Positions 23,138 to 60,016 of a DNA stretch of 64,000 bases are shown here, piece after piece. The stretch is from Paeniglutamicibacter terrestris (lineage in GTDB: Bacteria; Actinomycetota; Actinomycetes; Actinomycetales; Micrococcaceae). The stretch lies in contig NZ_JAAWVT010000006.1 in assembly GCF_012271785.1 (NCBI RefSeq), positions 124,001-188,000 on the forward strand, written 5' to 3'. The notes under the pieces were generated by a model that worked only from the letters and a program-made list of their open reading frames with translations, was not told the DNA's origin and made no database searches. Within the stretch, counting starts at the first letter, position 1. Each line of letters begins with the position of its first letter. The position numbers and the translations under genes are program-made.

Positions 23138-23809
23138 ATGAGCGCTGTCTCCGCAGGCCCGGAGGTGCTGGCCGAGTCGATTTCGCTGGCCGAACAGTCC
23201 TACCGGGACATCCGCGACCGGTTGATCATGCTCGACATCCGCCCGGGAGAACCCATCAACGACGGGCAGCTCGCGCTTGAGCTTGGTGTCGGACGGACGC
23301 CGGTGCGAGAGGCTCTCAAGCGCCTGGAAATCGACCACTTGGTAATTTCCTATCCGCGTCGCGGCACCTTTGCCACGATCGTGGACATCACCGAGTTGGC
23401 CGACGTCTCGGAACTTCGCCGTTCCCTGGAGCCGCTGGCTGCCCGCAAGGCCGCGCTCAGCGCCTCGGATGCCGACCGCGAAGCCCTGCGTGCCCTGGCC
23501 CGTGACATCGAGCGGCTTGAGGAGAAGGAGGTGGACAAGCGCGGGCTGATGGAATACGACCTCAGCGTCCACCGGCTGATCTACCGGGCCGCGGGAAACC
23601 ACCACCTCGAGGAAACGCTAATCCGCCTGGACAACCTGGCCACGCGAATCTGGTGCCTAGTCCTGGACAAGGTGCCGTCGGTGGCCGGACACATCGAGGA
23701 ACACGTCGACCTGCTCGATGCCATCGTGGCGGGAAACGCCGCAACGGCAGAAACGCTGGCGCTGGCGCACATCACCAGTTTCGAGCAGACCATCCGGGCG
23801 GTGCTCTAG
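23138..23809 (+). CDS. GntR-family regulator (FCD type)
   Basis: This 223-residue regulator has an N-terminal winged helix (about residues 22-85, YRDIRDRLIMLDIRPGEPIND then LELGVGRTPVREALKRLE) and a C-terminal all-helical FCD effector domain. Metal-coordinating residues are likely in DLSVHRLIYRAAGNHHLEETL and in AHITSFEQ. It is divergent from the glyA-soxBDAG operon and its likely operator lies in their shared promoter region. The effector may be sarcosine or a C1-related metabolite, by inference. Confidence 0.9.
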   Translation: MSAVSAGPEVLAESISLAEQSYRDIRDRLIMLDIRPGEPINDGQLALELGVGRTPVREALKRLEIDHLVISYPRRGTFATIVDITELADVSELRRSLEPLAARKAALSASDADREALRALARDIERLEEKEVDKRGLMEYDLSVHRLIYRAAGNHHLEETLIRLDNLATRIWCLVLDKVPSVAGHIEEHVDLLDAIVAGNAATAETLALAHITSFEQTIRAVL

Positions 23810-23843: not shown

Positions 23844-25346
23844 TCATTTGCGCGTGCCCAGGTTCGCGAGGGCCAGCCGGGTCGCCAAGTGGACCGCAGC
23901 AAGGCGCGAGGTGCCGCGCGGGTCGCCGCCGAGCAGGTCGAAGATCTTGTTCAGTCGCTTGTGCAGGGTCTGGCGTTCCATGAAGAGCGCGGCTGCGGCG
24001 GCCGTGGAATTGCACCCGCTCGACAGCCAGGCGTCCAGTGTGGCGACCAGGTCGCCGGATCGCAGGCTGTCATGGACCAGCAGGTCCGAAAGGATTTCCT
24101 GGATGTAGCGCTCGATCTTTTTTGGCCCGACATCGCGCTCGCATAGGCGCTCCAGAGCGACGTCCTCGCAATCGCGCACCGCCCCCGAGTTCGGCATGGG
24201 CAACGCGAGCCGCTCGGTCACAAGGGCCTGCTGCAGGGACCATGGCCCGTGTGAGGCATCGGGCACCCACGGGCCCATGACGCCCTGGACCGACACCGCC
24301 TCGATTTCGGCGCGCAACCCCAGTAGGATCCGCCGGCGTTCCTGCCGAGGTGAGATCCCCTTCAGTGGAAGCACGCCGTAGAGGTATTCGGAATCGAGAT
24401 AGGTTTTGATGTCGGGGCAGTTGTGCCGCAGGATCCTCTCCACTGCGCTGCGGACCCGACCCAGTTCGACCCCGCGGAACACCATGACAGCCACCGGGAC
24501 GGTGGCGTCGAGCCCGATCTGCACGCAAAGGTCCTTGATTTCGCTGGAGCTGGAGTCGCGGATGATCGCCTGCATAAGGGCCGAATCGGCAATCTGTGAC
24601 CGGGTTGGCCGATGGTGCTGGGACAGTGCGAGCGCCAGGATGCTTCCCAGCCGCTCTGCCACCGTGGACAAGAACTCCTTTTCGGCTTCGTGGCGGCTCT
24701 CCAGCTGCAGCCGCGCCGCGACAACGTCGGAAAGGAAGATGTCGGAGAGGACCTTCATTTCGATCTGCGCATCGGGGATGTCTCGGCTGCTGGCCAGGGT
24801 ATTGCCGCCCATATCGACCAGCAGCGCGTTGACGTCCAGGTTCTGGGCGATCAATGCCACCAGCGGGGTCAGTCCCGGTCCCGAGGTGGCGATTCGGTGG
24901 GCCAAACTCTGGGAGACCTCGTCGGCGCGTTGCAGGGCCAATGCCTGGGCGGAGACGATGGCCCGGTTGATGGTCTCGGCCAGTTCAACGAATGGCACGG
25001 TGGCGCGCAGCTCGATCAGCGGCAGGCCCGCCATTTCGGCCGCCTCAATGAGGGCGGGGGACAGCGACCGGTTCAGGCCCACGGTGTCAATGGCTAGGGC
25101 GGCAACCTTTCGCTCGGCCAGGCTCTGGATGTACTGGACCTGGGCCTCGACCCGAAGTGCCACCAGGTTCTGGCCCCCGCTAAGCAGCAGCTCTTCACCA
25201 CGTAACAACGGCGCGATCTCGAGGACCTCGCTCGAGTGCACCCAACGAACCTGGGTGGTCGCCGCATTCGCGGCCCCCGCCATGATGCGGGGGCGAGCCT
25301 TCATGAAGAGTGGGGTGGCCAGAACATCGTTGAGGTTCAGCAGCAT
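23844..25346 (-). CDS. PucR-family transcriptional regulator
   Basis: This 500-residue regulator has an N-terminal PucR ligand domain (about residues 1-125, NDVLATPLFMKARPRIMAG), a central GGDEF-like CdaR region, and a C-terminal helix-turn-helix in AALFMERQTLHKRLNKIFDLLG. PucR proteins often control purine or amine catabolism. It is divergent from the NCS1 permease gene, its most likely target. A 13-bp palindrome (25453-25465) between them is a candidate site. Confidence 0.88.
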   Translation of the reverse strand: MLLNLNDVLATPLFMKARPRIMAGAANAATTQVRWVHSSEVLEIAPLLRGEELLLSGGQNLVALRVEAQVQYIQSLAERKVAALAIDTVGLNRSLSPALIEAAEMAGLPLIELRATVPFVELAETINRAIVSAQALALQRADEVSQSLAHRIATSGPGLTPLVALIAQNLDVNALLVDMGGNTLASSRDIPDAQIEMKVLSDIFLSDVVAARLQLESRHEAEKEFLSTVAERLGSILALALSQHHRPTRSQIADSALMQAIIRDSSSSEIKDLCVQIGLDATVPVAVMVFRGVELGRVRSAVERILRHNCPDIKTYLDSEYLYGVLPLKGISPRQERRRILLGLRAEIEAVSVQGVMGPWVPDASHGPWSLQQALVTERLALPMPNSGAVRDCEDVALERLCERDVGPKKIERYIQEILSDLLVHDSLRSGDLVATLDAWLSSGCNSTAAAAALFMERQTLHKRLNKIFDLLGGDPRGTSRLAAVHLATRLALANLGTRK

Positions 25347-27218: not shown

Positions 27219-27244
27219 TGCAACCGGGGTGCGTTGATCGCAGT
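27219..27244 (+). promoter_or_regulatory. Degenerate three-half-site operator upstream of creatininase 1
   Basis: TGCAAC-N3-GGTGCG-N5-CGCAGT follows the architecture of the three strong operators at 28331, 30544 and 33377, with 15 of 18 half-site positions conserved. It lies 89 bases before the first creatininase start. No clear -35/-10 pair is seen next to it. Confidence 0.4.
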
Positions 27245-28298: not shown

Positions 28299-28356
28299 TT
28301 GACAGTGATGCGAGACACAAATAAAGTGAGCGCAACAGGGTTGCAATGGATGCAAC
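28299..28356 (+). promoter_or_regulatory. Promoter with three-half-site operator (MFS gene)
   Basis: TTGACA (28299-28304), 17 bp and TAAAGT (28322-28327) form a strong promoter. The 26-bp operator CGCAAC-N3-GTTGCA-N5-TGCAAC spans 28331-28356, overlapping the expected +1, which fits a repressor. Operator start is 32 bp from the -35 box, as at 33345. The IclR protein encoded at 35409 is the best candidate. Confidence 0.8.
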
Positions 28357-28381
28357 CAAAATAAACTCTGGTGGTTCCCAC

Positions 28382-29782
28382 ATGATTCAGCGCAACAACT
28401 CCGCGGACGGCAGCGATGCCCGCGAGCGTTCTGCAATGAGCACGCTCGCCAATACCCACGCCTCCGATCTCGGCCCAACGCTCAGCGGGCAGGACCGTGC
28501 GGACCCGGCCGGGATTGGCAAGAAAACCCGCACCAAGGTCGTTGCTGCCAGCTTCATCGGCAACTTTGTGGAATGGTTCGACTACGCCGTCTACGGCTAC
28601 CTTGCAGTGACCATCACGGCGGTCTTCTTCCCGGACTCCGACCCGGCAACCGGCTTGATGCTCACCTTCGCACTCTTCGCGATCTCGTTCCTGGTCCGTC
28701 CGCTGGGCGGATTCGTCTGGGGTCACCTGGGAGACAAGATCGGCCGGCGCGAGGCACTCTCGTGGTCCATCCTGATCATGTCCGCGGCAACCTTCTGCAT
28801 TGCCTTGATCCCGTCCTACAACACCATCGGCGTCTGGGCTCCAATCCTGCTGCTGATTATCCGCGTCGTCCAGGGGTTCTCTGCTTCCGGCGAATACGCG
28901 GGTGCCTCCGCCTTCCTGGTGGAATATGCGCCAGCCAACCGCCGCGGCCTCTACGCAGCCGTCGTTCCGGCCAGCACGGCCGCGGGCCTGTTGCTCGGCT
29001 CGCTGCTCGCTGCGCTGCTGACGGGCATGCTGGAACCTGAGCAAATGCAGTCCTGGGGCTGGCGACTGCCGTTCCTGCTGGCGGCACCCATGGGCCTGAT
29101 CGGACGTTACATCCGCACCAAGCTCGAGGACTCGCCGATATTCAAGGAGCTGGCCAAGGAAGACAATGCCGTGAAAGCCCCGGTCAGTGCGCTGTTCAAG
29201 AACCACTGGCGCCAACTCATCCAGGCCGTCGGTGCGGTGCTGCTGAACGCAGTGGGTTTCTACCTCATCCTCAGTTACATGCCCACGCACTTGTCCCAAA
29301 ACATCGGACTCAGTGAAACCGCATCTTATGTGGCCACCACCGTGGCGCTGACGACGTACATCGGTTTCATTTTCGTGGTCGGAATGCTCTCCGACCGCTT
29401 CGGGCGCAAGAAGGTCCTGATGAGCGCATCGATCACCTTCGTAGTGCTGACGGTGCCGGCGTTCATGCTGCTAGAAACCGGCAACTTCCTCATCGTCGTC
29501 CTGGTGCAGATCCTGCTCGGCGCGATGCTCAGCCTCAATGACGGGACACTTCCCAGCTACCTGGCCGAAATGTTCCCCACCCGGGTCCGTTACTCCGGAT
29601 TCGCCGTGAGCTTCAACCTGTCCAATGCACTCTTCGGCGGTACCGCACCGTTCGTGGCAACCGTCTTGATCGCTTCCTCCGGCACCGCCCTGGCCCCGGG
29701 CTGGTACCTCATGGGTGCGGCTGTCATCTCTCTGGTGGCCGTGGCCTTCTCGGTTGAAACCAGTAAGAAGGCGCTGGCATAG
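28382..29782 (+). CDS. MFS transporter, metabolite:H+ symporter (MHS/ProP-like) type
   Basis: This 466-residue transporter has 12 membrane segments and the MHS-family N-terminal pattern FIGNFVEWFDYAVYGYLAV. The loop 2-3 signature WGHLGDKIGRREALSWSI and SGEYAGASAFLVEYAP are also present. Relatives import dicarboxylates, betaines, proline or other small osmolyte-like acids. It stands alone between two creatininase genes and shares their operator type, so creatine, sarcosine or betaine are plausible substrates. The start at 28382 has GGTGG upstream; an ATG at 28436 is an alternative. Confidence 0.85.
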   Translation: MIQRNNSADGSDARERSAMSTLANTHASDLGPTLSGQDRADPAGIGKKTRTKVVAASFIGNFVEWFDYAVYGYLAVTITAVFFPDSDPATGLMLTFALFAISFLVRPLGGFVWGHLGDKIGRREALSWSILIMSAATFCIALIPSYNTIGVWAPILLLIIRVVQGFSASGEYAGASAFLVEYAPANRRGLYAAVVPASTAAGLLLGSLLAALLTGMLEPEQMQSWGWRLPFLLAAPMGLIGRYIRTKLEDSPIFKELAKEDNAVKAPVSALFKNHWRQLIQAVGAVLLNAVGFYLILSYMPTHLSQNIGLSETASYVATTVALTTYIGFIFVVGMLSDRFGRKKVLMSASITFVVLTVPAFMLLETGNFLIVVLVQILLGAMLSLNDGTLPSYLAEMFPTRVRYSGFAVSFNLSNALFGGTAPFVATVLIASSGTALAPGWYLMGAAVISLVAVAFSVETSKKALA

Positions 29783-29803
29783 CCGGCCGGGGGCCTTCTC
29801 CTT

Positions 29804-30163
29804 CCTAGAGAAGTTATGTCAGGGACTTGCCCCGGAACCGCCGAGGAACCGGTCTCCAAGGTGGAACGCTCCGCCGCTGCCGCGTCCAAGACCAGCACCC
29901 GGAAAACCGGTGACGGGACCACCGTCACCAGCTACCGGGACCTCCTGTCCCACCTGGCCACCAAGTCCGGAACGCCACCAGCGTTCCGGGCACCGAGACG
30001 TCCTTCGAACTGCTCTCCCTGCCCACGCCCCGCCAACAGCGGGCCATGGACCTCATTGACCAGCACACCCGAAACCACAGAATATAGCCAGACGGAGCCA
30101 AGAGCGCCAGGATCCCCGACAATCCGGGGATCCTGGCGCTCTGTCTCACGTAACTTCTCTAGG
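29804..30163. mobile_element. Decayed insertion-sequence remnant with terminal inverted repeats
   Basis: CCTAGAGAAGTTATGT (29804-29819) and its inverted partner (30148-30163) match at 15 of 16 positions and bracket a transposase fragment. Just inside the right end is a perfect 17-bp hairpin (30101-30117 with 30126-30142). No obvious target duplication is seen. The element is about 360 bp and non-functional. Confidence 0.6.
29816..30087 (+). pseudogene. IstA-like (IS21-type) transposase C-terminal fragment, frameshifted
   Basis: The first frame reads VTSYRDLLSHLATKS and then degenerates. Restoring one missing base near 29966-29970 continues it as RNATSVPGTETSFELLSLP and TPRQQRAMDLIDQ to a stop at 30087. 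The pattern of a leading DLL, an RN, then LL.LPTP.QQRAMDLI resembles the C-terminal end of IS21-family IstA transposases. The N-terminal catalytic part and IstB are absent. The family assignment is tentative; the frameshift is inferred from continuity of the pattern. Confidence 0.5.
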
Positions 30164-30510
30164 GTGCCAAACGGGGTCGGTCGGGCCTTGGTCGCAGTGG
30201 CCCGAGGAGGGTGCGTTACGCGGTCTTGCATTGGGTCGGGCAGATTGCGTGGCGTCCTTCCTGTTGAGGCCAGGGTAGGGGATTCTTTTCCTGGTGCCGA
30301 CTACTTGTGTCTGACGAGTATCCGCCTGGTCGGTGATGGCAGGGACCCCTCCCGTGGCCCAGCGGGTGTCGTCGCCGGGTTTTCACCGCGGTGGACCAGG
30401 ATCCGGGCGGATCGCTGTCAATGTGGTGATTCGACAGTGCCGGTGACAGCATTCCATGTAATTTTGTTGCGAATGTCGGAGGCTTGCGCCTTGCGCCTGA
30501 GTAACCAAGC
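30164..30510. other. Non-coding spacer between IS remnant and creatininase 2 promoter
   Basis: About 350 bases without a convincing gene. The frame open on the minus strand (30216-30530) is arginine- and histidine-rich and resembles no family. Near its right end TTGCGCCTTGCGC (30484-30496) duplicates the core of the operator at 30544-30569 but lacks the outer half-sites. Confidence 0.5.
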
Positions 30511-30569
30511 TTGACTGTGAGCTGAGCCACTGAGAGTATTCAACGCAACAGGGTTGCGCCTTGCGCAAC
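30511..30569 (+). promoter_or_regulatory. Promoter with three-half-site operator (creatininase 2 / BCCT)
   Basis: TTGACT (30511-30516) precedes a weak -10 (AGTATT at 18 bp spacing, or TATTCA at 20). The 26-bp operator CGCAAC-N3-GTTGCG-N5-CGCAAC covers 30544-30569, 33 bp from the -35 box. The -35 flank GTGAGCTG is shared with the creatinase promoter. Confidence 0.75.
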
Positions 30570-30651
30570 GAAAGTTCTTCTTCCACGGGACTCGTGACGT
30601 TCCGCCGAAGTCCCAATATTCCTCGTCCGCTGTCAATACTAGGAGACAACG

Positions 30652-31446
30652 ATGACCTCAGTATTTCTTGAAGACCTCGACGCAGAAACCTACTCTGCCA
30701 TTGTGGCGAAGGAAGGATCGACCGTAATCATCCCGACTGGTGCCACGGAGCAACACGGTCCGCATATGCCATTGGGTGTAGATGCCATGCTGTCGAAGGC
30801 GATCGCCGGGTTAGTCGCCGAAAAAATCGGCGCAGTGGTTGCCCCGGTATTCGCGTACGGCTACAAGTCCCAGCCGCGTTCGGGTGGCGGCAACCACCGC
30901 GTAGGTACCACCAGCCTCGGTGCCGCGGCGTTGACCGGGATGGTGGACGATGTGGTTTCCTCGTTCCTGGCCCAAGGCTTCAAGCATGTGGTGGTCCTCA
31001 ATGGCCACTTCGAGAATTACCAGTTCATCTATGAGGGTCTGGACAATGCGGTTGCCCGGGCGCGCACCAATGGCACCAGCTCGCGGGCACTGCTGCTTTC
31101 CTACTGGGACTTCGTTGACGAAGCCACCTTGGAAAAGGTCTTCCCCGATGGCTTCCTGGGTTGGGACATCGAACACGGCGGGGTGCTGGAAACCTCCCTG
31201 ATGCTGTTGCTACACCCGGAAAAGGTGGACATGTCACGCGTCGTGGACCACCCCCCGGCCAAGGTGACCCCCTACGACATCTTCCCCGAGGACCCGGCGC
31301 GGACACCGGCCAGCGGCTGCCTTTCCAGTGCAAAGGGTGCGAACGCAGAGCGCGGCCAGCTCTTGCTCGATGCGGTTGTCATCCAGGTTGCAGATGCCCT
31401 TAAGGGCGAACTCTTGCTCGGGGACATCACCCTGGAGGTGCCATAA
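30652..31446 (+). CDS. Creatininase (creatinine amidohydrolase), copy 2
   Basis: This second 264-residue creatininase is collinear with copy 1 without gaps, at roughly 70 percent identity. It retains the metal ligands (EQHGPHMPLGVDAM, LNGHFEN), the YWDFVD and GWDIEHGG tryptophans, and the GYKSQPRSGGGNHRVGTTSL segment. The ribosome-binding site is AGGAG. It is co-transcribed with a BCCT transporter that begins 1 base after its stop. Having two copies may reflect different induction, or specialisation toward a related cyclic guanidine or hydantoin. Sequence does not decide. Confidence 0.87.
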   Translation: MTSVFLEDLDAETYSAIVAKEGSTVIIPTGATEQHGPHMPLGVDAMLSKAIAGLVAEKIGAVVAPVFAYGYKSQPRSGGGNHRVGTTSLGAAALTGMVDDVVSSFLAQGFKHVVVLNGHFENYQFIYEGLDNAVARARTNGTSSRALLLSYWDFVDEATLEKVFPDGFLGWDIEHGGVLETSLMLLLHPEKVDMSRVVDHPPAKVTPYDIFPEDPARTPASGCLSSAKGANAERGQLLLDAVVIQVADALKGELLLGDITLEVP

Positions 31447-31447
31447 C

Positions 31448-33202
31448 ATGTCACTGGACAAGACGACCCCGCATCCGGCCGCGAGTGCCGAAGGCGACAA
31501 CGACCCCAAGTTCGCAGCGCCGGTGGAGCTTCCCCGCTTCATGGGGCGGCACATCCCGCCGCTTGACAGGTTGCTGATCCGCGTCATTCCACCGGTGCTC
31601 ATCGTTGGCGTGATCATCTGGGTGCTGGCAAACCCGGCGGAAGCTGCGGCAGCGATCTCCGAAATGCGTACATTCGTGACCGGCAAGTTCACCTGGCTGT
31701 TCATCCTGTATTCGGTCTTCACCGTGGTGGTGTGCATCTGGCTCGCCACGAGCAAGGTTGGCAAGGTTCGTCTCGGTGGACCCAACGCGAAGCCACAGCA
31801 CAGCAAGTTCGCCTGGTATTCGATGCTCTTCGCCTGCGGGCAGGGCATCGGGCTGATCTTCTGGTCGGTCGCCGAACCCATCATGCTGCGTGACGAAAAC
31901 CCGGTCATCCCGGCCGGACCCAGCGGCGGCGCCGAGGGCGCAATCGTATGGACCTACTTCCACTGGGGCCTGACCGCCTGGGCGATGTACTGCGTCGTCG
32001 CGGTCTGCCTCGCCTACTCGCACCACAACCTGGGCAAGACCCTGACGTTCCGCGAAGCCACCGTCGACATCCTGCCGCGCTGGTCGCGCCGCGGGGCAGG
32101 CGTCGTCATCGAACTGCTGGCCATCATAGCTACCGTGCTCGGCCTGGCCACGTCCTTCGGGTTCGCGGCCATGCAGTTCAGCTCCGGCATCACCTCCTTT
32201 ACCGGAATCGTGGCAAGCCCGATGATGTGGTTCATGGTCATTCTGGTCTTCGCAGGCATCACCTCGGTCTCGGCCATCGTGGGCATCAACAAGGGCATGG
32301 CCCGGATCAGCAGCGTGAACTCGATCCTGAGCATCGCGCTGGTGCTCGCCGTGCTGGTCTTCGGTCCGACGCTGTTCATCATTTCGAATATGTCCCAGAC
32401 CTTCGGCAGCTTCATGGCGAACTTCGTGGACATGAGCATGTGGACGGACTCGGGTTTGGCCGCCACGACGCTGGAGAGTTGGCAGGACAGCTGGAACGGC
32501 TGGTGGACGGTGTTCATCTGGTGCTGGGTCATTGCCTTCTCCCCGTTCGTCGCAGGCTTCATTGCCCGGATTTCCCGCGGGCGCACCATCCGTGAGTTTG
32601 TCCTGGGCGTGACCGTCATCCCGACCCTGATCGTCATGGTCTGGGTGGCGGTGATCGGCTCGGCCGCCATCTTCTACGACGACAAGTCCGACCGCGGCAT
32701 CAGCGCAGCAGTGGCAGTCGATACCTCCGCCGGCCTGTTCGCAATGCTCGACGCCGTCCCGGTGGTTGGCACCATCCTGCTGGTGGTGGCCACCATCCTG
32801 GTCGCCACCTACTACGTCACTTCCCTGGACTCGGGGATCTATGCGCTGAGCGAGTTTGTCTCGGCGCCGCACAAATCCGGACCCGTGTTCCGCGTGGTGC
32901 TGGTGCTTTCGGTGGGTACGGTCACCACGGTGTTGCTGACATTGGGCGGAACCGCGGTGGTCGACACGGTGCAGACCGGCACCATCATCGGGGCTTTCCC
33001 GTTCTCCTTCGTGATCATTCTGATGATCGTGAACCTGATCCGGAGGCTGCTCAAGCGCGACAAGGCGATTAGGCAGCTGGAAAAATTCATCAATGACCCT
33101 GACCCGACGCTGGTCTTTGTTCCCGATCCGAGGGAGGAGGGCGCGATCCGCAGGGTCGCCTTTGAAGGCGGCAAGGAAACTGGACTGCCAGAGAAGAACT
33201 AA
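31448..33202 (+). CDS. BCCT-family transporter
   Basis: This 584-residue protein of the betaine/carnitine/choline transporter family has 12 membrane segments. It has the aromatic motif WTYFHWGLTAWAMYCVVAV and GQGIGLIFWSVAEP, plus a charged C-terminal tail. Family members move quaternary ammonium or zwitterionic compounds with sodium or protons. Creatine and sarcosine are chemically similar to betaine, so one of these is the likely substrate given the neighbours. The ATG at 31448 has GGAGGTG upstream and lies 1 base after the creatininase stop. Confidence 0.88.
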   Translation: MSLDKTTPHPAASAEGDNDPKFAAPVELPRFMGRHIPPLDRLLIRVIPPVLIVGVIIWVLANPAEAAAAISEMRTFVTGKFTWLFILYSVFTVVVCIWLATSKVGKVRLGGPNAKPQHSKFAWYSMLFACGQGIGLIFWSVAEPIMLRDENPVIPAGPSGGAEGAIVWTYFHWGLTAWAMYCVVAVCLAYSHHNLGKTLTFREATVDILPRWSRRGAGVVIELLAIIATVLGLATSFGFAAMQFSSGITSFTGIVASPMMWFMVILVFAGITSVSAIVGINKGMARISSVNSILSIALVLAVLVFGPTLFIISNMSQTFGSFMANFVDMSMWTDSGLAATTLESWQDSWNGWWTVFIWCWVIAFSPFVAGFIARISRGRTIREFVLGVTVIPTLIVMVWVAVIGSAAIFYDDKSDRGISAAVAVDTSAGLFAMLDAVPVVGTILLVVATILVATYYVTSLDSGIYALSEFVSAPHKSGPVFRVVLVLSVGTVTTVLLTLGGTAVVDTVQTGTIIGAFPFSFVIILMIVNLIRRLLKRDKAIRQLEKFINDPDPTLVFVPDPREEGAIRRVAFEGGKETGLPEKN

Positions 33203-33206
33203 TCGC

Positions 33207-33250
33207 GCGAAGGCCGTGGTGTCCGCAATGGCGGAGACCACGGCCTTCGC
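33207..33250 (+). terminator. Terminator after the BCCT gene
   Basis: A 14-bp stem GCGAAGGCCGTGGT/ACCACGGCCTTCGC (33207-33220 with 33237-33250) is continued by an inner TCCGC/GCGGA stem. Confidence 0.85.
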
Positions 33251-33344
33251 CGTTGCCGCGAGGGAAAACCTCCTTGAAAGTACCGGCAAAAGGCCCGGTT
33301 GTGTGCCGCGAATCGGAAATCTTTCGACGCTCGCCGGAAACCAC

Positions 33345-33402
33345 TTGACAGTGAGCTGGGGCACACATATTCTGAATGCAACGGAGTTGCAATGAATGCA
33401 AC
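33345..33402 (+). promoter_or_regulatory. Promoter with three-half-site operator (creatinase)
   Basis: TTGACA (33345-33350), 17 bp and TATTCT (33368-33373) form a strong promoter. The 26-bp operator TGCAAC-N3-GTTGCA-N5-TGCAAC covers 33377-33402 over the expected +1. An untranslated leader of about 100 bases precedes the TTG start at 33501. Confidence 0.82.
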
Positions 33403-33500: not shown

Positions 33501-34757
33501 TTGACCACCACCGCGAACAGCGCCACCAACGTTTCCGAACTCGAGCGCCTGAAGACCCTGCACAACGGGACCAAGCAGCAGCTCACGTTCTCCGACGCAG
33601 AATTCGAGCGTCGTCTGACCGGCCTGCGCCAGATCATGGCCGCCAACGACCTGGACGCGGTCATCCTGACCAGCTACCACGGCATCAAGTACTACTCCGA
33701 TTTCTTGTACACCACCTTCGGTCGCAACTACGCGCTGGTTGTCACCGCCGACAGCTCGACCACCATCACCGCGAACATCGATGCCGGCATGCCATGGCGC
33801 ACCAGCTATGGCGACAACATTGTCTACACCGACTGGAAGCGTGACAACTTCTACTACGGACTCCAAGAAGCACTGAAGCGCAACGGCGTGAAGGCAGCGC
33901 GACTCGGTATCGAGGATGACGCCCTGCCGACCATGACTCGCCAGGCCATCGCCGACACGTTCCCGGGTGTCGCCCTGGTGGATGTCTCGCAGGCTGCCAT
34001 GCGCCAGCGCATGATCAAGTCCGCCGAGGAAATCGAGGTCATCAAGCACGGTGCACGCATCGGCGATATCGGCGGCGAAGCCATCAAGGCAGCCATCCGC
34101 GAGGGCATCACCGAGTACGAGGTCGCCCTGATCGGCACCGAGGCCATGGTCCACGAAATCGCCAAGACCTTCCCGCACCGCGAAGTGCGCGACACCTGGG
34201 TCTGGTTCCAGTCCGGCATCAACACCGACGGCGCACACAACTGGGCCACGACCCGCAAGCTGGAGCGCGGCGACATCCTCTCGCTGAACTGCTTCCCGAT
34301 GACTTCGGGCTACTACACCGCCCTGGAGCGCACCCTGTTCCTCGGAGAGCCGGACGAGCGCTCGCTGCAGGTATGGAACGCCAACGTCGAGGTGCACAAG
34401 CGCGGACTGGAACTCATCAAGCCCGGAGCTGTCTGCAAGGACATCGCCGCCGAGCTCAACGAGATCTTCATCGGCCACGGCCTGCTGCCAAACCGCACCT
34501 TCGGCTACGGCCACTCCTTCGGCGTCCTCTCGCACTACTACGGCCGCGAAGCGGGCCTGGAGCTGCGCGAGGACATCGACACGGTCCTGGAGCCGGGCAT
34601 GGTGGTCTCCATGGAACCGATGGTCACCATCGCCGACGGCGAGCCGGGTGCCGGAGGCTACCGCGAGCACGACATCCTGGTCATTGGCGAGGACGGCGGC
34701 GTGGAGAACATCACCAAGTTCGGCTTCGGTCCGGAAAACAACATCATCGACGCCTAG
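33501..34757 (+). CDS. Creatinase (creatine amidinohydrolase)
   Basis: This 418-residue pita-bread-fold enzyme hydrolyses creatine to sarcosine and urea. Every residue known from the Pseudomonas enzyme has a counterpart: F73/R75 (FGR), catalytic H246 in NTDGAHN, E276 (ALERTLF), R349 (YYGRE), E372 (SMEPM) and H390 (YREHD), with a constant offset of 14 after the N-terminal domain. The start is TTG with AAGGAGT upstream. It links the creatininases to sarcosine oxidase. Absence of the aminopeptidase metal ligands separates it from Xaa-Pro peptidases. Confidence 0.93.
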   Translation: MTTTANSATNVSELERLKTLHNGTKQQLTFSDAEFERRLTGLRQIMAANDLDAVILTSYHGIKYYSDFLYTTFGRNYALVVTADSSTTITANIDAGMPWRTSYGDNIVYTDWKRDNFYYGLQEALKRNGVKAARLGIEDDALPTMTRQAIADTFPGVALVDVSQAAMRQRMIKSAEEIEVIKHGARIGDIGGEAIKAAIREGITEYEVALIGTEAMVHEIAKTFPHREVRDTWVWFQSGINTDGAHNWATTRKLERGDILSLNCFPMTSGYYTALERTLFLGEPDERSLQVWNANVEVHKRGLELIKPGAVCKDIAAELNEIFIGHGLLPNRTFGYGHSFGVLSHYYGREAGLELREDIDTVLEPGMVVSMEPMVTIADGEPGAGGYREHDILVIGEDGGVENITKFGFGPENNIIDA

Positions 34758-34775
34758 TACCGAACTGGCATGATG

Positions 34776-34815
34776 GGGGCGGTGGAGTGCACTCGTGCGC
34801 ACCACCGCCCCTTTT
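34776..34815 (+). terminator. Terminator after creatinase
   Basis: The stem GGGGCGGTGG/CCACCGCCCC (34776-34785 with 34802-34811) is followed by TTTT. It separates creatinase from the deaminase gene 50 bases on. Confidence 0.85.
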
Positions 34816-34864: not shown

Positions 34865-35323
34865 ATGAACCTGGACGCACACGACCGCGCCGGCTATGCC
34901 ATCGCCCTTGAGCAGGCCCGCCTGGGTGCAGGAGAGGGCGGAGTGCCCATTGGCTCGAGCATCTTTCAGAACGGGAAGCTGCTGGGGGCCGGCCGCAACC
35001 GCCGAGTGCAAAACGGGGATCCGACGGCGCATGGGGAAATCGATGCGCTGCGCAAGGTCGGGCGCCGTGCCTCCTACGCCGGAACTACCCTGTACTCCAC
35101 GCTGGCTCCGTGCGCCATGTGCGCCGGATCGATCATCCTCTTCGGCATCCCGCGCGTGGTGGTGGGGGAGGACGAGAATTTCCCCGGGGAACTCGAACTG
35201 CTGCGGTCCCGCGGTGTGGATGTCGTGGTCATCGACGATCCGAAGGCCACCGCACTCATGGAAAGCTTTATCACCGAGTACCCCGCTCTTTGGAACGAAG
35301 ACATCGGCGTCGAAGAGAACTAA
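34865..35323 (+). CDS. Cytosine deaminase-like nucleoside deaminase, possible creatinine deaminase
   Basis: This 152-residue protein of the cytidine-deaminase fold has the zinc motif HGE (in PTAHGEIDALRK) and PCAMC (in STLAPCAMCAGS). Its length and the C-terminal FITEYPALWNEDIG resemble the yeast-type cytosine deaminase group. In this island a route from creatinine to N-methylhydantoin plus ammonia is conceivable, since cytosine deaminases are known to deaminate creatinine. Ordinary cytosine or guanine salvage remains equally possible. It lies between creatinase and the IclR gene. Confidence 0.75.
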   Translation: MNLDAHDRAGYAIALEQARLGAGEGGVPIGSSIFQNGKLLGAGRNRRVQNGDPTAHGEIDALRKVGRRASYAGTTLYSTLAPCAMCAGSIILFGIPRVVVGEDENFPGELELLRSRGVDVVVIDDPKATALMESFITEYPALWNEDIGVEEN

Positions 35324-35408: not shown

Positions 35409-36206
35409 ATGGCTGCCACCACCACTATCCCCGCCCCCGCGACCGAGCAGCGTGGTGCCTCGGTGATTGTCAACGTCATTGATGTATTGCGTTGCTTTAC
35501 CGTGGAGAACCCGCTGTTGGGTGTCACTGAAATCGCCGCTCAGGTGGGGCTGCACAAGTCGAGTATTTCGCGCATCCTGGCGACCCTCGAGCAGGAACGC
35601 ATCGTGGCCCGCGACGAGGCGACCCGGAAGTACGCTTTGGGATTGGGACTGATCGCGATAGCCGGCCCATTGCTTGCCAATCTTGATGTTCGCCGTACCT
35701 CCTTCCCGTTCCTGGAACAGCTGGCCGCGCAGACCGGTGAAACCGCGGTGCTGACCATCTGGGATGGCGCCGAATCGGTATCGGTCGAGCAGATCCCCAG
35801 CATTCATTTGGTCAAACACACCTCGGTGATGGGCAGCCGGTACAACACCGCGCTCAGTGCTTCCGTGCAGGTCTTTTTGGCCCATGAACAGCCGGCACGT
35901 GCGGCGGCGTTATTGGAAGCCGGATCGGTGGTGCTGCCCACGGACACTGCTTCCGCACGTGCCGCCTACCTGAAACGACTAGAGATGGTGCGCCGAGACG
36001 GTTTCGCGGCAAACCACGGGGAAACCTCCAGTGAGGAAGTCGGGGTGGCAGCCCCAATCTTCGACCATCGCGGAGCGGTAGTTGCCTGCGCCATGATTGC
36101 CGCCCCGTATTACCGGGTCTCGAAAGAACAACTTGCCGAACTTGGCACTGCCTGTGTGAAGACAGCGCGGAAGATCAGCACGCGGTTGGGCGCATCGGCA
36201 GCTTAG
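35409..36206 (+). CDS. IclR-family regulator
   Basis: This 265-residue regulator has an N-terminal winged helix (about residues 17-78, LLGVTEIAAQVGLHKSSISRILATLEQE) and a C-terminal IclR effector domain (about 85-260, including VGVAAPIFDHRGAVVACAMI). It closes the creatinine island. The three 26-bp operators at 28331, 30544 and 33377 have alternating half-sites of a type often bound by IclR tetramers, so this protein is their best local candidate. The ribosome-binding site is GGAGAG. Confidence 0.88.
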   Translation: MAATTTIPAPATEQRGASVIVNVIDVLRCFTVENPLLGVTEIAAQVGLHKSSISRILATLEQERIVARDEATRKYALGLGLIAIAGPLLANLDVRRTSFPFLEQLAAQTGETAVLTIWDGAESVSVEQIPSIHLVKHTSVMGSRYNTALSASVQVFLAHEQPARAAALLEAGSVVLPTDTASARAAYLKRLEMVRRDGFAANHGETSSEEVGVAAPIFDHRGAVVACAMIAAPYYRVSKEQLAELGTACVKTARKISTRLGASAA

Positions 36207-36245
36207 GATCGTGAATCGTATCGACTGAAGATGAGGGACATTCTG

Positions 36246-36659
36246 ATGTTTGAACCGCGAGGCGCTTACACCTTTGGGCACCGGCTGCATGAGGGCAGCG
36301 GGACGAAGATGCAATTCCATTTTGTTGATGAGATGAAAATGCCCGTCGCGATCCAAACGTGGGAAATTGAACCCGGTGGGTACGAGGGGATGCACGCCCA
36401 CGAATCTCACGAGTTGGCACTTGAGGAGTTTTACCTCGTCCTTGCTGGAAGCGCCAGCATGCACGTGGGTGACACGGTGCACGAGCTGAGCATCGGTGAC
36501 AGTGTGCTGGCCCCTGCCGGGATCCAACACGATCTGCGTAACACGGGAGATGAGCTGTTGCGCGTTCTAGTGGTGTGGGGAGAAGCGGGCGAAAAGAACT
36601 TTTCCCGGTTCGGGTCCGTCGGCAAGGCGCGAGCAGCACGGGCCTCATCCGTCCTTTGA
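36246..36659 (+). CDS. Cupin-domain protein
   Basis: This 137-residue single-domain beta barrel has cupin motif 1 in GGYEGMHAHESHELALEEFYLVL and motif 2 in LSIGDSVLAPAGIQHDLRNTG. The histidines and glutamates H, H, E, H for one metal are present. The function is unknown; such proteins range from isomerases to ligand sensors. The ATG at 36246 is preferred because GAGGGAC is well spaced before it; an ATG at 36231 would add 5 residues. It lies 39 bases after the IclR gene. Confidence 0.78.
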   Translation: MFEPRGAYTFGHRLHEGSGTKMQFHFVDEMKMPVAIQTWEIEPGGYEGMHAHESHELALEEFYLVLAGSASMHVGDTVHELSIGDSVLAPAGIQHDLRNTGDELLRVLVVWGEAGEKNFSRFGSVGKARAARASSVL

Positions 36660-36678
36660 TTGCCGCTGCGCGAGGCGT

Positions 36679-37500
36679 TTATTGGCCCGAGGCGCTTCCC
36701 GGTGTGCGGTCTGAAACTGCTTGCCGAATACGGTTTAACCACTGCATTAGCTCCGCACCGGTGGCATCGGGCTGATCAAGGTGCGCGTTGTGGCCCGCTT
36801 CCTCAAGCACTCGCACGGTGGCGTCTGCATAGCAACTAGCCAGCCGCTGTTGGTCCTCGAAACCAACCACATGATCTTGGCGCCCGGTTATGATGAGCGT
36901 CGGGCCGGAGTAATTGCTGACTCGTTGCTCTGGCTCGCATGACAACGAATAATTTCCGGCAATCCGGCCGATGGCCGATCGATCAAATGCGCGCAATCCG
37001 GGAAGCGCACCGTCGCGGAATCTCGCCCAATTCTCCTGATTCTGGAGAACAGCCAACTCCGCGTAGGCGCTGGCATCATCCGGATCCAGAGATGCTAACA
37101 ACGCGGAATCCCGTTGCAAAACTGTTGCCGGTGGCAAGACTCGGCGAGCTTTATCGGCAACCACCACCGCGCAGAGCAGCGCCATTCCCATGATTTGATC
37201 GCCGAACTCAGCTACGAGATGCCTGGCGAGCATCCCGCCAAAAGAATGGCCGAGCACCGCAAATTTTTGGCTTCCGAACGTGGCCCGGACAAAGGCCACC
37301 AGCTCGGCTGCGACGTCATCGGTACTGCGGATTTCGGCTCCAGCCACCGATGCTCCCATGCCCGGCAGATCCACGTAGATCCGGCGCCATGACCCATGTG
37401 ATTCAAATACCGGGTCGAGTCCCAGCAACAGGCGATGATCCACGCAAAATCCATGAATCAGCAAGAGGGGAGTCCCTGTTCCGCGTTCGACTGTATGCAC
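36679..37500 (-). CDS. Alpha/beta-fold hydrolase
   Basis: This 273-residue hydrolase has the oxyanion segment HGF (residues 16-18), nucleophile elbow GHSFGG with S86, an acid in ITGRQDHVVG, and the catalytic histidine in EEAGHNAHLDQP. It is a serine esterase, lactonase or related enzyme of unknown substrate. It is convergent with the cupin gene and divergent from the FAD dehydrogenase gene. No membrane or export signal is seen. Confidence 0.85.
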   Translation of the reverse strand: MHTVERGTGTPLLLIHGFCVDHRLLLGLDPVFESHGSWRRIYVDLPGMGASVAGAEIRSTDDVAAELVAFVRATFGSQKFAVLGHSFGGMLARHLVAEFGDQIMGMALLCAVVVADKARRVLPPATVLQRDSALLASLDPDDASAYAELAVLQNQENWARFRDGALPGLRAFDRSAIGRIAGNYSLSCEPEQRVSNYSGPTLIITGRQDHVVGFEDQQRLASCYADATVRVLEEAGHNAHLDQPDATGAELMQWLNRIRQAVSDRTPGSASGQ

Positions 37501-58019: not shown

Positions 58020-58319
58020 GTCGAGCAGGGGTCAGCCGGCTTTGAAGGACGTTCAGGCCGTAGCCCCTGCCGTCGTGATGTACGAATGCAGGTACCCAAG
58101 AAGGCAAAGTTGTTACACGGGCTTGGTGCGCTGGATAGCTGACTGTTGTCCGTTCCCTGCCTTGTGCGGCCGGGTTCTTGGTGTAGTTTGCCCGCGGATC
58201 GATCACCGCGCTACGTGCTTGACCTGATCACGATCAAAAGTTGACATTACTTGCTGTGATGCACTTCACTTGGGATGAATGGGCTTGAATTTCCGTGAAC
58301 CGACATCTGGAGGCTAATC
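58020..58319. other. Intergenic region upstream of the xanthine dehydrogenase genes
   Basis: About 300 bases with no gene. It contains TTGACC (58219) and TTGACA (58241) as -35-like hexamers 22 bp apart, and the dyad TGATC-AC-GATCA (58225-58236) between them. No convincing -10 box follows either. Confidence 0.45.
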
Positions 58320-58510: not shown

Positions 58511-60016
58511 ATGACCGCCGAGACAACGGAAAGATCGAGCTGTCGAATAACCGTCAACGGAACCGTCCATGAATTCGATGGCCCACCGCATACCAACGCG
58601 CTAGATTTCCTGCGTGGCGAAGGGCTTATCGGTTGCAAGGAGGGATGCGCCGAGGGTGAATGCGGCGCCTGCTCGATCCTCGTGGCTCGCAGCGACGGGC
58701 AGGGGACCCGCTGGACGGCGTTGAACGCCTGCCTGATGCCCGCCGCGTCGCTCGATGGCCAGGAAGTGATCACTTCAGAAGGCCTCGGTAGCGTGGAAAA
58801 CCTGCATCCGGTGCAGGAAGAAATGGCCAATCGCGGTGGATCCCAGTGCGGTTATTGCACCCCCGGATTCGTCTGCTCCATGGCCGCGGAATACTACCGC
58901 CCGGAGCGAAACTCCAACACCGCAGACAGCGCGGATCACGGCGAGGCGCACCGGTGGGGTCCCAATGGATTCGATCTGCACTCACTTTCCGGGAACTTGT
59001 GCCGCTGCACCGGGTATCGGCCCATCCGTGATGCGGCTTATGCTTTGGGCGCACCGGATGCACAGGACGTGCTGGCTGCCCGGCGTGAACTAGCTGCACC
59101 GGCGGCGGTGTCCACCGATATCAAGCGTGCTGACACGCCCACCGGAACGATTGGCCGCTTCAGGCGTCCCGCCAGCTTGGACGAGGCGCTCAGTATTCTG
59201 GCCGCAGAACCCGAAACTCTGCTCGTGGCCGGGGGCACCGACTGGGGCGTTGAAGTAAATATCAAGGGCGCACGTGCCCGATCGATACTGGCCATCGACA
59301 GGCTTACCGACTTGCGCCAGATTCACTTCACCGCAGATTATATCGAGCTCGGAGCAACGTGCACGCTCAGTGAGATCGAACGTCTTTTGGCCGGAAAGAT
59401 CCCTCTATTGGGCAAACTCTTCCCGCAGTTCGCCTCCAGATTGATCCGAAATGGAGCCACCATTGGTGGCAATTTGGGTACCGCTTCGCCTATTGGAGAT
59501 ACCCCTCCGGCGCTGCTAGCGCTGGAGGCAGAGCTCGTGTTGGGCAGCGCCGCGGGGAATCGCATTGTGCCGCTAGCGCAGTACTTCACCGGTTATCGGC
59601 AGACCGTGCGCGCCGCTGGGGAACTGATCACCGCAGTTCGCATCCCACTGCCGCTGGCACCACTAACCAGTTTCCAGAAGATTTCCAAACGACGCTTTGA
59701 CGATATCTCCAGTGTGGCCATCGGCTATGCGGTGACCATCGAAAACAATCACATCACCAAGGCGCGCATTGGCTTGGGGGGAGTGGCAGCCACCCCGTTA
59801 AGGGCTATGGCAACTGAAGCTGCCTTGGAGGGCCAAGAATGGTGTTTGGACACCATCAATGCTGCCGCCGAAGTGATGGCGCTGGAGGGGACTCCGATGG
59901 ATGACCTTCGCGCCAGCTCAAGCTACCGAAAAGCCATGCTGAAGTCATCGCTCGAACGTTTTTTCGCCGAACAGTTGCTGCATTCCGCCAAAGCCAACGG
60001 GGAGCGGAGCTCATGA
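58511..60016 (+). CDS. xdhA: Xanthine dehydrogenase small subunit (2Fe-2S and FAD)
   Basis: This 501-residue subunit has an N-terminal plant-type 2Fe-2S site (CKEGCAEGECGACS), a second 2Fe-2S site (CGYCTPGF and CRCTGYR), and a C-terminal FAD domain (AGGTDWGVEV, then RNGATIGGNLGTASPIGDTPPAL). It carries electrons from the molybdenum site to NAD. The ATG follows AGGAGGTG. It overlaps the large-subunit gene by 4 bases. Confidence 0.93.
   Translation: MTAETTERSSCRITVNGTVHEFDGPPHTNALDFLRGEGLIGCKEGCAEGECGACSILVARSDGQGTRWTALNACLMPAASLDGQEVITSEGLGSVENLHPVQEEMANRGGSQCGYCTPGFVCSMAAEYYRPERNSNTADSADHGEAHRWGPNGFDLHSLSGNLCRCTGYRPIRDAAYALGAPDAQDVLAARRELAAPAAVSTDIKRADTPTGTIGRFRRPASLDEALSILAAEPETLLVAGGTDWGVEVNIKGARARSILAIDRLTDLRQIHFTADYIELGATCTLSEIERLLAGKIPLLGKLFPQFASRLIRNGATIGGNLGTASPIGDTPPALLALEAELVLGSAAGNRIVPLAQYFTGYRQTVRAAGELITAVRIPLPLAPLTSFQKISKRRFDDISSVAIGYAVTIENNHITKARIGLGGVAATPLRAMATEAALEGQEWCLDTINAAAEVMALEGTPMDDLRASSSYRKAMLKSSLERFFAEQLLHSAKANGERSS

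Follow-up and report, generated by a model that had tools for sequence, protein, structure and literature searches.

The creatine genes of Paeniglutamicibacter terrestris very probably form a regulon under one IclR-family protein, which would act through a 26-bp operator that recurs at three promoters. We examined 64,000 nt of contig NZ_JAAWVT010000006.1 (positions 124,001 to 188,000; this whole stretch is the window, and all positions below refer to it), in which an MHS-type transporter gene, a creatininase 2-BCCT transporter unit and a creatinase gene are each preceded by the element YGCAAC-N3-GTTGCR-N5-YGCAAC, made of three boxes. In the mechanism that we favor, the IclR protein encoded at 35409-36206 would bind all three operators, repress creatine uptake and degradation, and be released by a compound of the pathway. 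The exactness of the sites, their uniqueness in the genome, their cover of the predicted start points, the box spacing, the one-sided third box and the co-occurrence with IclR and creatinase were computed directly; binding, repression and the ligand are what we infer. An earlier note on this DNA had regarded the three sites as one regulon with IclR as the best candidate, and the co-occurrence and target data support this. We conclude that the regulon is real and very specific.

A pattern search of the window found the operator exactly at three places, all on the plus strand (Table 1), and none of 100 shuffled window sequences reached four pattern matches. The whole genome (4,340,083 bases, 4.34 Mb) holds only these three exact matches, none with one or two mismatches, and 29 with three. 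The last level is background, since the reversed pattern gave 18+22 matches in the same genome at up to three mismatches. All three sites named in the earlier note are thereby confirmed as the only ones in the genome at two mismatches or fewer. A match at 27219, upstream of creatininase 1, was rejected as a fourth operator: its three mismatches place it in the genome background, no -35 box is seen by eye, and it lies inside a terminator-like hairpin.

The position of the operators relative to the promoters is nearly constant. The -35 boxes TTGACA, TTGACT and TTGACA begin 32, 33 and 32 nt before operators 1, 2 and 3, and each is followed by GTGA. With a 17-nt spacer to the -10 boxes TAAAGT, GAGTAT and TATTCT, the predicted +1 (28334, 30546 and 33380) falls inside box 1 of its operator in every case. 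These measured spacings bear out the earlier reading of a TTGACA/T box with a GTGA flank 32-33 bp away and an operator lying over the expected start. The same geometry holds for 56 promoter-type matches in the window and its relatives, where the primary operator begins 31-34 nt after the start of TTGAC, with 28-38 nt allowed.

Comparison across genomes ties the operator to the IclR gene. At up to two mismatches, 99 genomes (this one and 98 relatives) gave many exact or near-exact sites at creatine loci, plus scattered chance-like ones; the comparison of loci among relatives leaves out part of L079-L080 and one mis-framed query protein (36220-36700) out of 16. Among 395 Micrococcaceae genomes, this one included, the exact operator was present in 135 and the reversed control in none. 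A close IclR homologue (E<=1e-67) was found in 175 and creatinase (E<=1e-150) in 177 of the 395. Of the genomes with the exact motif, 131 have the close IclR and 129 creatinase: 128 have both, three only IclR, one only creatinase, and three the motif alone. Where the exact motif is absent, 42 genomes have both genes, two IclR alone, six creatinase alone, and 210 neither. The scan of the whole genome and of relatives that had been proposed earlier as a check is thus strongly positive, with matches that track creatinase loci.

The exceptions were examined individually. We inspected 18 of the 42 genomes with both genes and no exact motif; 15 have a site with one or two mismatches before a gene of the cluster, in two of the 18 (G005 and G339) a contig end cuts off the upstream end of the cluster, and the last, G019, lacks a site at its promoter. 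The two genomes with IclR alone are G416, whose contig starts at the IclR gene, and G311, whose contig showed no site and stops about 220 nt before its creatininase. Among those with creatinase alone, the contig of G394 starts just upstream of its creatininase gene, and G254 has a more distant IclR (46%) and, some 65 nt before the part of its MHS gene that is conserved, a site with one mismatch that lacks TTGAC. The creatinase clusters of G031, G043, G411 and G417 lack this IclR and retain homologues of PucR and GntR, and they show no site at up to three mismatches in 19-20 kb; G411/G417 and G031 are congeneric (g10, g18) with genomes having both IclR and the site. The operator therefore tracks IclR, which separates it from the rival regulators. 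As for genomes with the exact motif and without a close IclR, the match in G032 is chance-like, with no homologue of the window in a 19-kb stretch, that in G127 stands at a contig end with no homologue, and that in G391, also at a contig end, lies before the MHS start and beside sox genes and is probably real. In G035, the IclR gene is cut by a contig end.

The targets agree with this. A GTDB-wide scan for TTGAC plus operator, blind to genes, returned at least 117 stretches, 80 of them listed with names, and at least 126 distinct promoter-linked sites. Among the matches listed, 121 of 126 sites precede a creatine-pathway gene (MHS 88, creatinase 27, creatininase 5, NCS1 1); for four of the other five the fetched DNA stops too soon, and the fifth stands before an ABC-transporter gene. 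Among 123 of the listed promoter-linked sites there are 81 distinct 26-mers, and nearly all of the 80 named records are Micrococcales, including Arthrobacter, Pseudarthrobacter, Paenarthrobacter, Glutamicibacter, Citricoccus, Nesterenkonia, Sinomonas, Brevibacterium and Georgenia. A cassette of MHS, creatinase and IclR genes with two exact operators (L266) is carried by a plasmid of Arthrobacter sp. U41 (NZ_CP015734.1) that is typed as conjugative, and the switch can therefore travel with its genes. The fifth site of the scan, an exact three-box operator, comes from a Mesorhizobium metagenome-assembled genome (L185/L267/L270), where a longer stretch shows an IclR gene (31% identity) on one side of it and, on the other, a divergent gene that by resemblance probably encodes an ABC-transporter ATPase; homologues of sarcosine oxidase follow past the IclR gene. 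The target there is likely a transporter other than MHS.

Some relatives carry a second operator-like site upstream of the MHS operator, mostly 62-64 or 133-168 bp away (53 pairs at 62-186 bp, 44 of them at 133-168 and six at 62-64). In L148, L173, L177, L184, L254 and L266, this second site is exact, stands 141-155 bp from the MHS operator and adjoins the start of a divergent glyA or soxB gene, and the sarcosine branch therefore probably joins the regulon in these six loci. Such sites may reflect a wider regulon or DNA looping. Helical phasing gives no proof of looping, as no significant periodicity was seen among the 22 same-strand distances that are unique (R=0.34, p ~0.08). A pattern search of our window found no second upstream operator on its sox-glyA side.

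The internal layout of the operator is that of an IclR site. When box spacings of 0-14 were tested in the cluster loci, only AAC-N3-GTT (108) and GTT-N5-AAC (111) recurred and all others reached two at most, each palindrome being counted on both strands. Boxes in alternating directions with pair spacings of group 1 (GTT-11-AAC) and group 2 (AAC-3/4-GTT) are the three-box arrangement of the IclR family. The third box is one-sided: among the 44 N3 dyads preceded by TTGAC at 22-36 nt, box 3 follows downstream in 38, and an additional upstream box was seen in none. This upstream count, together with flanking columns that carry no information, led us to reject a conserved fourth half-site as a general feature. 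Reversed three-box sites (2 of 50 N5 dyads) were also dismissed, both being ordinary sites (L070 and L086) read from the opposite strand that happen to have a TTGAC 5 or 13 nt off. Conservation by column was judged on the 56 of 75 matches (up to two mismatches) with TTG[AT]C 28-38 nt upstream, 53 of them distinct; outside the boxes there is little information except in the promoter columns and at +18 (counted 0-based from where the operator starts), which is A. Since these rows were chosen by the position of TTG[AT]C, the conservation of the -35 box is selected and that of the GTGA dyad is not.

This dyad is the least expected part of the regulon. The earlier note had seen the GTGA flank, which is indeed present at all three promoters, but missed its partner NCAC and with it a second regulatory site: every window promoter and most relatives carry GTGA-N6-NCAC between -35 and -10, and each window dyad matches seven of the eight core bases (GTGA, TCAC). 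In the cluster loci, 44 of the 53 distinct promoters have the dyad at N6, none at N5 or N7, one at N4 and nine at N8 (partly a by-product of CACAC runs), and it starts 6, 5 or 7 nt from TTGAC in 38, 4 and 2 cases. Among the GTDB matches listed (123 of the 126 sites were taken), at least seven of the eight core bases are found at N6 in 89% of promoters, compared to 1.1% in shuffles and 1-20% at the other spacings from 2 to 11 (N8 highest at 20%, N4 9%). The fixed N6 is that of CRP/GlxR sites of the TGTGA-N6-TCACA type, and the dyad resembles the GTGA-N6-TCAC core of the actinobacterial GlxR consensus TGTGANNTANNTCACA given in PMC4254451; unlike that consensus, the right half in the window is NCAC rather than TCAC, and the dyad lies between -35 and -10, centered at -22.5.

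A Crp homologue encoded in the genome has a cNMP-binding and an HTH_Crp_2 domain and matches the GlxR structures 3r6s/4cyd at 247 bits and 3d0s, presumably CRP of Mycobacterium tuberculosis, at 267 bits. TTGACNGTGAN7CAC occurs five times in the genome, compared to none for the control, and three of the five are the creatine promoters. A second input by a CRP/GlxR-type protein on the dyad is likely, and a global catabolic regulator at the predicted site is plausible. Two further TTGAC-GTGA-N6-NCAC promoters on contig C1 (L261 and L262) stand before catabolic-type units, which by resemblance are probably of the TetR/acyl-CoA carboxylase and hydroxypyruvate isomerase types; no three-box site was seen at either. 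The only other WGTGA-N6-NCACW in the window, TGTGATGCACTTCACT at 58255-58270, lies about 240 nt upstream of a gene at 58511 that is presumably xanthine-dehydrogenase-like.

How the switch would work follows from the position of the operator. Without inducer, the IclR protein would cover about -3 to +23 and keep the transporter unit, the creatininase 2-BCCT unit and creatinase from being transcribed, until a pathway compound, most likely creatine, releases it. Repression is favored because the operator lies over +1, and creatine because creatinase and MHS recur as targets while six operator loci (L066, L073, L091, L100, L101 and L102) show no creatininase homologue in their fetched stretch. It is possible, although rather doubtful, that the one-sided operator reflects an asymmetric docking in which a single IclR tetramer engages only three of the four DNA-binding domains that it has, the additional box being the downstream one, and acts together with a CRP-type protein in the promoter spacer; carbon/energy state and creatine would then be read on one 60-bp stretch. 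On this reading, DNA looping through the second operator near the divergent glyA-sox promoter of related genera might be a further part, making a compact creatine-to-serine switch.

Other explanations of the operator have to be weighed against this. The earlier statement that IclR is the only regulator next to these units does not hold, as a PucR-type and a GntR/FCD gene, both of them common in creatinase clusters, are found less than 5 kb from operator 1, and either could own the operator. We consider this very unlikely: the four clusters that have both without IclR show no site, no PucR homologue was found at E<=1e-15 in the fetched stretch (the part of each genome that was searched) of the site-bearing L073, L077, L091, L100, L101 and L102, nor a GntR homologue in that of L077 and L101, and the box layout is that of IclR sites. 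That the element acts as RNA, with boxes 1-2 and 2-3 as alternative hairpins in a 5' leader, would fit inverted repeats that are partly transcribed. However, the predicted +1 lies inside box 1, and the end bases of boxes 1 and 2, which alone vary in a pattern that fixes the others, show no covariation (of 12 among the 123 listed sites with a C in box 1, 10 pair it with A and two with G), making such a role extremely improbable. That the similarity reflects no more than a recent copying of promoter DNA together with paralogous genes is equally hard to credit. The two creatininases are paralogous and TTGAC-GTGA is common to all three promoters, but in the 53 distinct promoters from family and order (boxes with up to two mismatches) the boxes persist although the spacers and flanks around them change, 44 promoters retain the dyad, whose phase to the -35 box shifts by one base with N6 unaltered, and creatininase 1 has no operator, its only match being the 3-mismatch one inside the hairpin.

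More serious is the possibility that the IclR protein binds these sites as an activator or dual regulator. The IclR family includes activators and dual regulators according to the main text of PMC8222616, and the second upstream sites of some relatives would suit such a role; the operator lies over the predicted +1 in 56 promoter-type matches, which is a blocking position, and we therefore regard activation as unlikely. Other observations limit the favored explanation itself. The association of motif and IclR gave Fisher p=8e-60 over the 395 genomes and p=0.0017 within the 177 with creatinase, values that overstate the case because genomes of one genus are not independent. Genome G019 has IclR and creatinase, but its sole match at up to two mismatches stands in reverse orientation about 310 bp before MHS and lacks TTGAC. 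The recognition-helix region (GLHKSS/T..SRIL) is nearly invariant among operator-linked orthologues, and its HKSTVSR core is common to IclR paralogues with no site nearby (L103-L105), so that the helix does not discriminate. The boxes read YGCAAC/GTTGCR here vs YGRAAC/GTTYCR in PMC8222616, one letter off per box with five of six positions fitting; several members of its Table 1 also deviate from that consensus. WGTGA-N6-TCACW palindromes are only weakly enriched in the genome (14 vs 6 for the control), and no operator in the window belongs to the IclR gene itself, with a terminator-like hairpin upstream of the deaminase gene, so that autoregulation is not evident.

Table 1. Operators, predicted promoters, companion dyads and genes of the creatine locus, with positions in the window.
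Feature	Position	Strand	Remarks
Three-box operator 1	28331..28356	+	CGCAAC-N3-GTTGCA-N5-TGCAAC
Three-box operator 2	30544..30569	+	CGCAAC-N3-GTTGCG-N5-CGCAAC
Three-box operator 3	33377..33402	+	TGCAAC-N3-GTTGCA-N5-TGCAAC
Promoter, MHS unit (sigma-70-type)	28299..28327	+	TTGACA-17-TAAAGT, +1 ~28334; -35/-10 pattern also in relatives (-35 a selection criterion there)
Promoter, creatininase 2-BCCT unit	30511..30539	+	TTGACT-17-GAGTAT, +1 ~30546; not in the promoter list that holds the other two
Promoter, creatinase	33345..33373	+	TTGACA-17-TATTCT, +1 ~33380
CRP/GlxR-like dyad GTGATGCGAGACAC	28305..28318	+	Center -22.5 from predicted +1
CRP/GlxR-like dyad GTGAGCTGAGCCAC	30517..30530	+	Promoter of creatininase 2-BCCT unit
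CRP/GlxR-like dyad GTGAGCTGGGGCAC	33351..33364	+	Creatinase promoter
GntR/FCD gene	23138-23809	+	~4.5 kb from first operator
PucR-type gene	23844-25346	-	~3 kb from first operator
MHS/MFS-type transporter	28382..29782	+	TIGR00883 412 bits (below cut-off 443); Pfam MFS
Creatininase 2	30652..31446	+	TIGR04448 348 bits (cut-off 235)
BCCT transporter	31451..33202	+	PF02028 458 bits
Creatinase	33501..34757	+	552 bits to PDB 1chm, creatine amidinohydrolase
Deaminase-fold protein	34865..35323	+	Between creatinase and IclR; PF00383 68.7 bits
IclR-family regulator	35409..36206	+	Proposed repressor for the three operators; PF09339 48.1 bits (cut-off 22), PF01614 100.5 bits (cut-off 24)

The genes around the operators are arranged in the order sarcosine oxidase and glyA (minus strand; presumed names, by family resemblance), GntR/FCD regulator, PucR-type regulator, NCS1 permease, creatininase 1, MHS-type transporter, creatininase 2, BCCT transporter, creatinase, deaminase-fold protein and IclR regulator. 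Profile and structure matches confirmed the identities that had been given to the target genes. The MHS/MFS-type transporter is a probable route of creatine or creatinine uptake; its start was set at 28382 because the ATG at 28346 falls inside operator 1, and with this start the alignment to most congeneric relatives begins at residue 1. The regulator itself has an IclR-type helix-turn-helix and an IclR C-terminal effector domain, and no NCBIfam equivalog passes its cut-off for this clade. Between the MHS gene and creatininase 2, inverted repeats of 19 nt (89% complementary) surround 322 bp at 29804-30163, a stretch looking like the remnant of a small mobile element, and a separate perfect 18-bp hairpin lies at 30101-30142. 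A strong terminator-like hairpin with a T run at 34776-34811 (z-score -2.85 for a 126-nt stretch) separates creatinase from the deaminase gene, and IclR may therefore be transcribed apart from creatinase in this genome.

The regulon would assign a function to an IclR clade that has no passing NCBIfam equivalog. The sensor domain of PDB 3OBF, listed as a putative transcriptional regulator of the IclR family, shares 52% identity with the window protein and 88% with the IclR protein from L133, whose creatinase cluster has an operator with one mismatch; 3OBF therefore belongs to this regulator clade, and the assignment would extend to it. The structure of the ligand domain is thus already solved, 3OBF covering the sensor domain only. 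Our findings predict a creatine-responsive repressor that could serve as part of a creatine/creatinine biosensor. With more than 120 natural promoter-linked sites, a one-sided third box and no conserved fourth, they also offer test material for IclR DNA binding that could set two dimerization modes against tetramer binding, and a 26-base switch on the creatine/creatinine breakdown genes of Arthrobacter-family soil bacteria is a ready system for studies of IclR-DNA recognition.

An assignment of the three-box layout to creatine catabolism was not found in the literature searched (open-licence PMC papers), where the one paper returned for IclR together with creatine-type subjects deals, by its title, with a progesterone sensor. 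The control by AmtR in Corynebacterium glutamicum ATCC 14067 (PMC8864220) likewise places a repressor over creatininase and creatine transport in an actinobacterium, although AmtR is a TetR-family nitrogen regulator, unlike the IclR protein here, and the main text of that paper does not mention IclR. The layout of the operator is of an already known IclR kind. Suvorova and Gelfand (2021; PMC8222616) predicted three-box sites for 32 of 181 IclR groups, citing PcaU, PobR and HmgR, and the main text of their paper contains neither "creatin" nor "Arthrobacter", whereas the targets here are creatine/creatinine genes. The earlier note took the three-box layout to suggest a tetrameric or cooperative repressor; Suvorova and Gelfand read it as alternative dimerization and tandem sites as tetramer binding, and they cite a report that the third box of PcaU is necessary for binding. 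Our sites are the same as theirs in their alternating boxes, in the pair spacings of groups 1 and 2, in the IclR-family regulator in the locus and in having catabolic targets.

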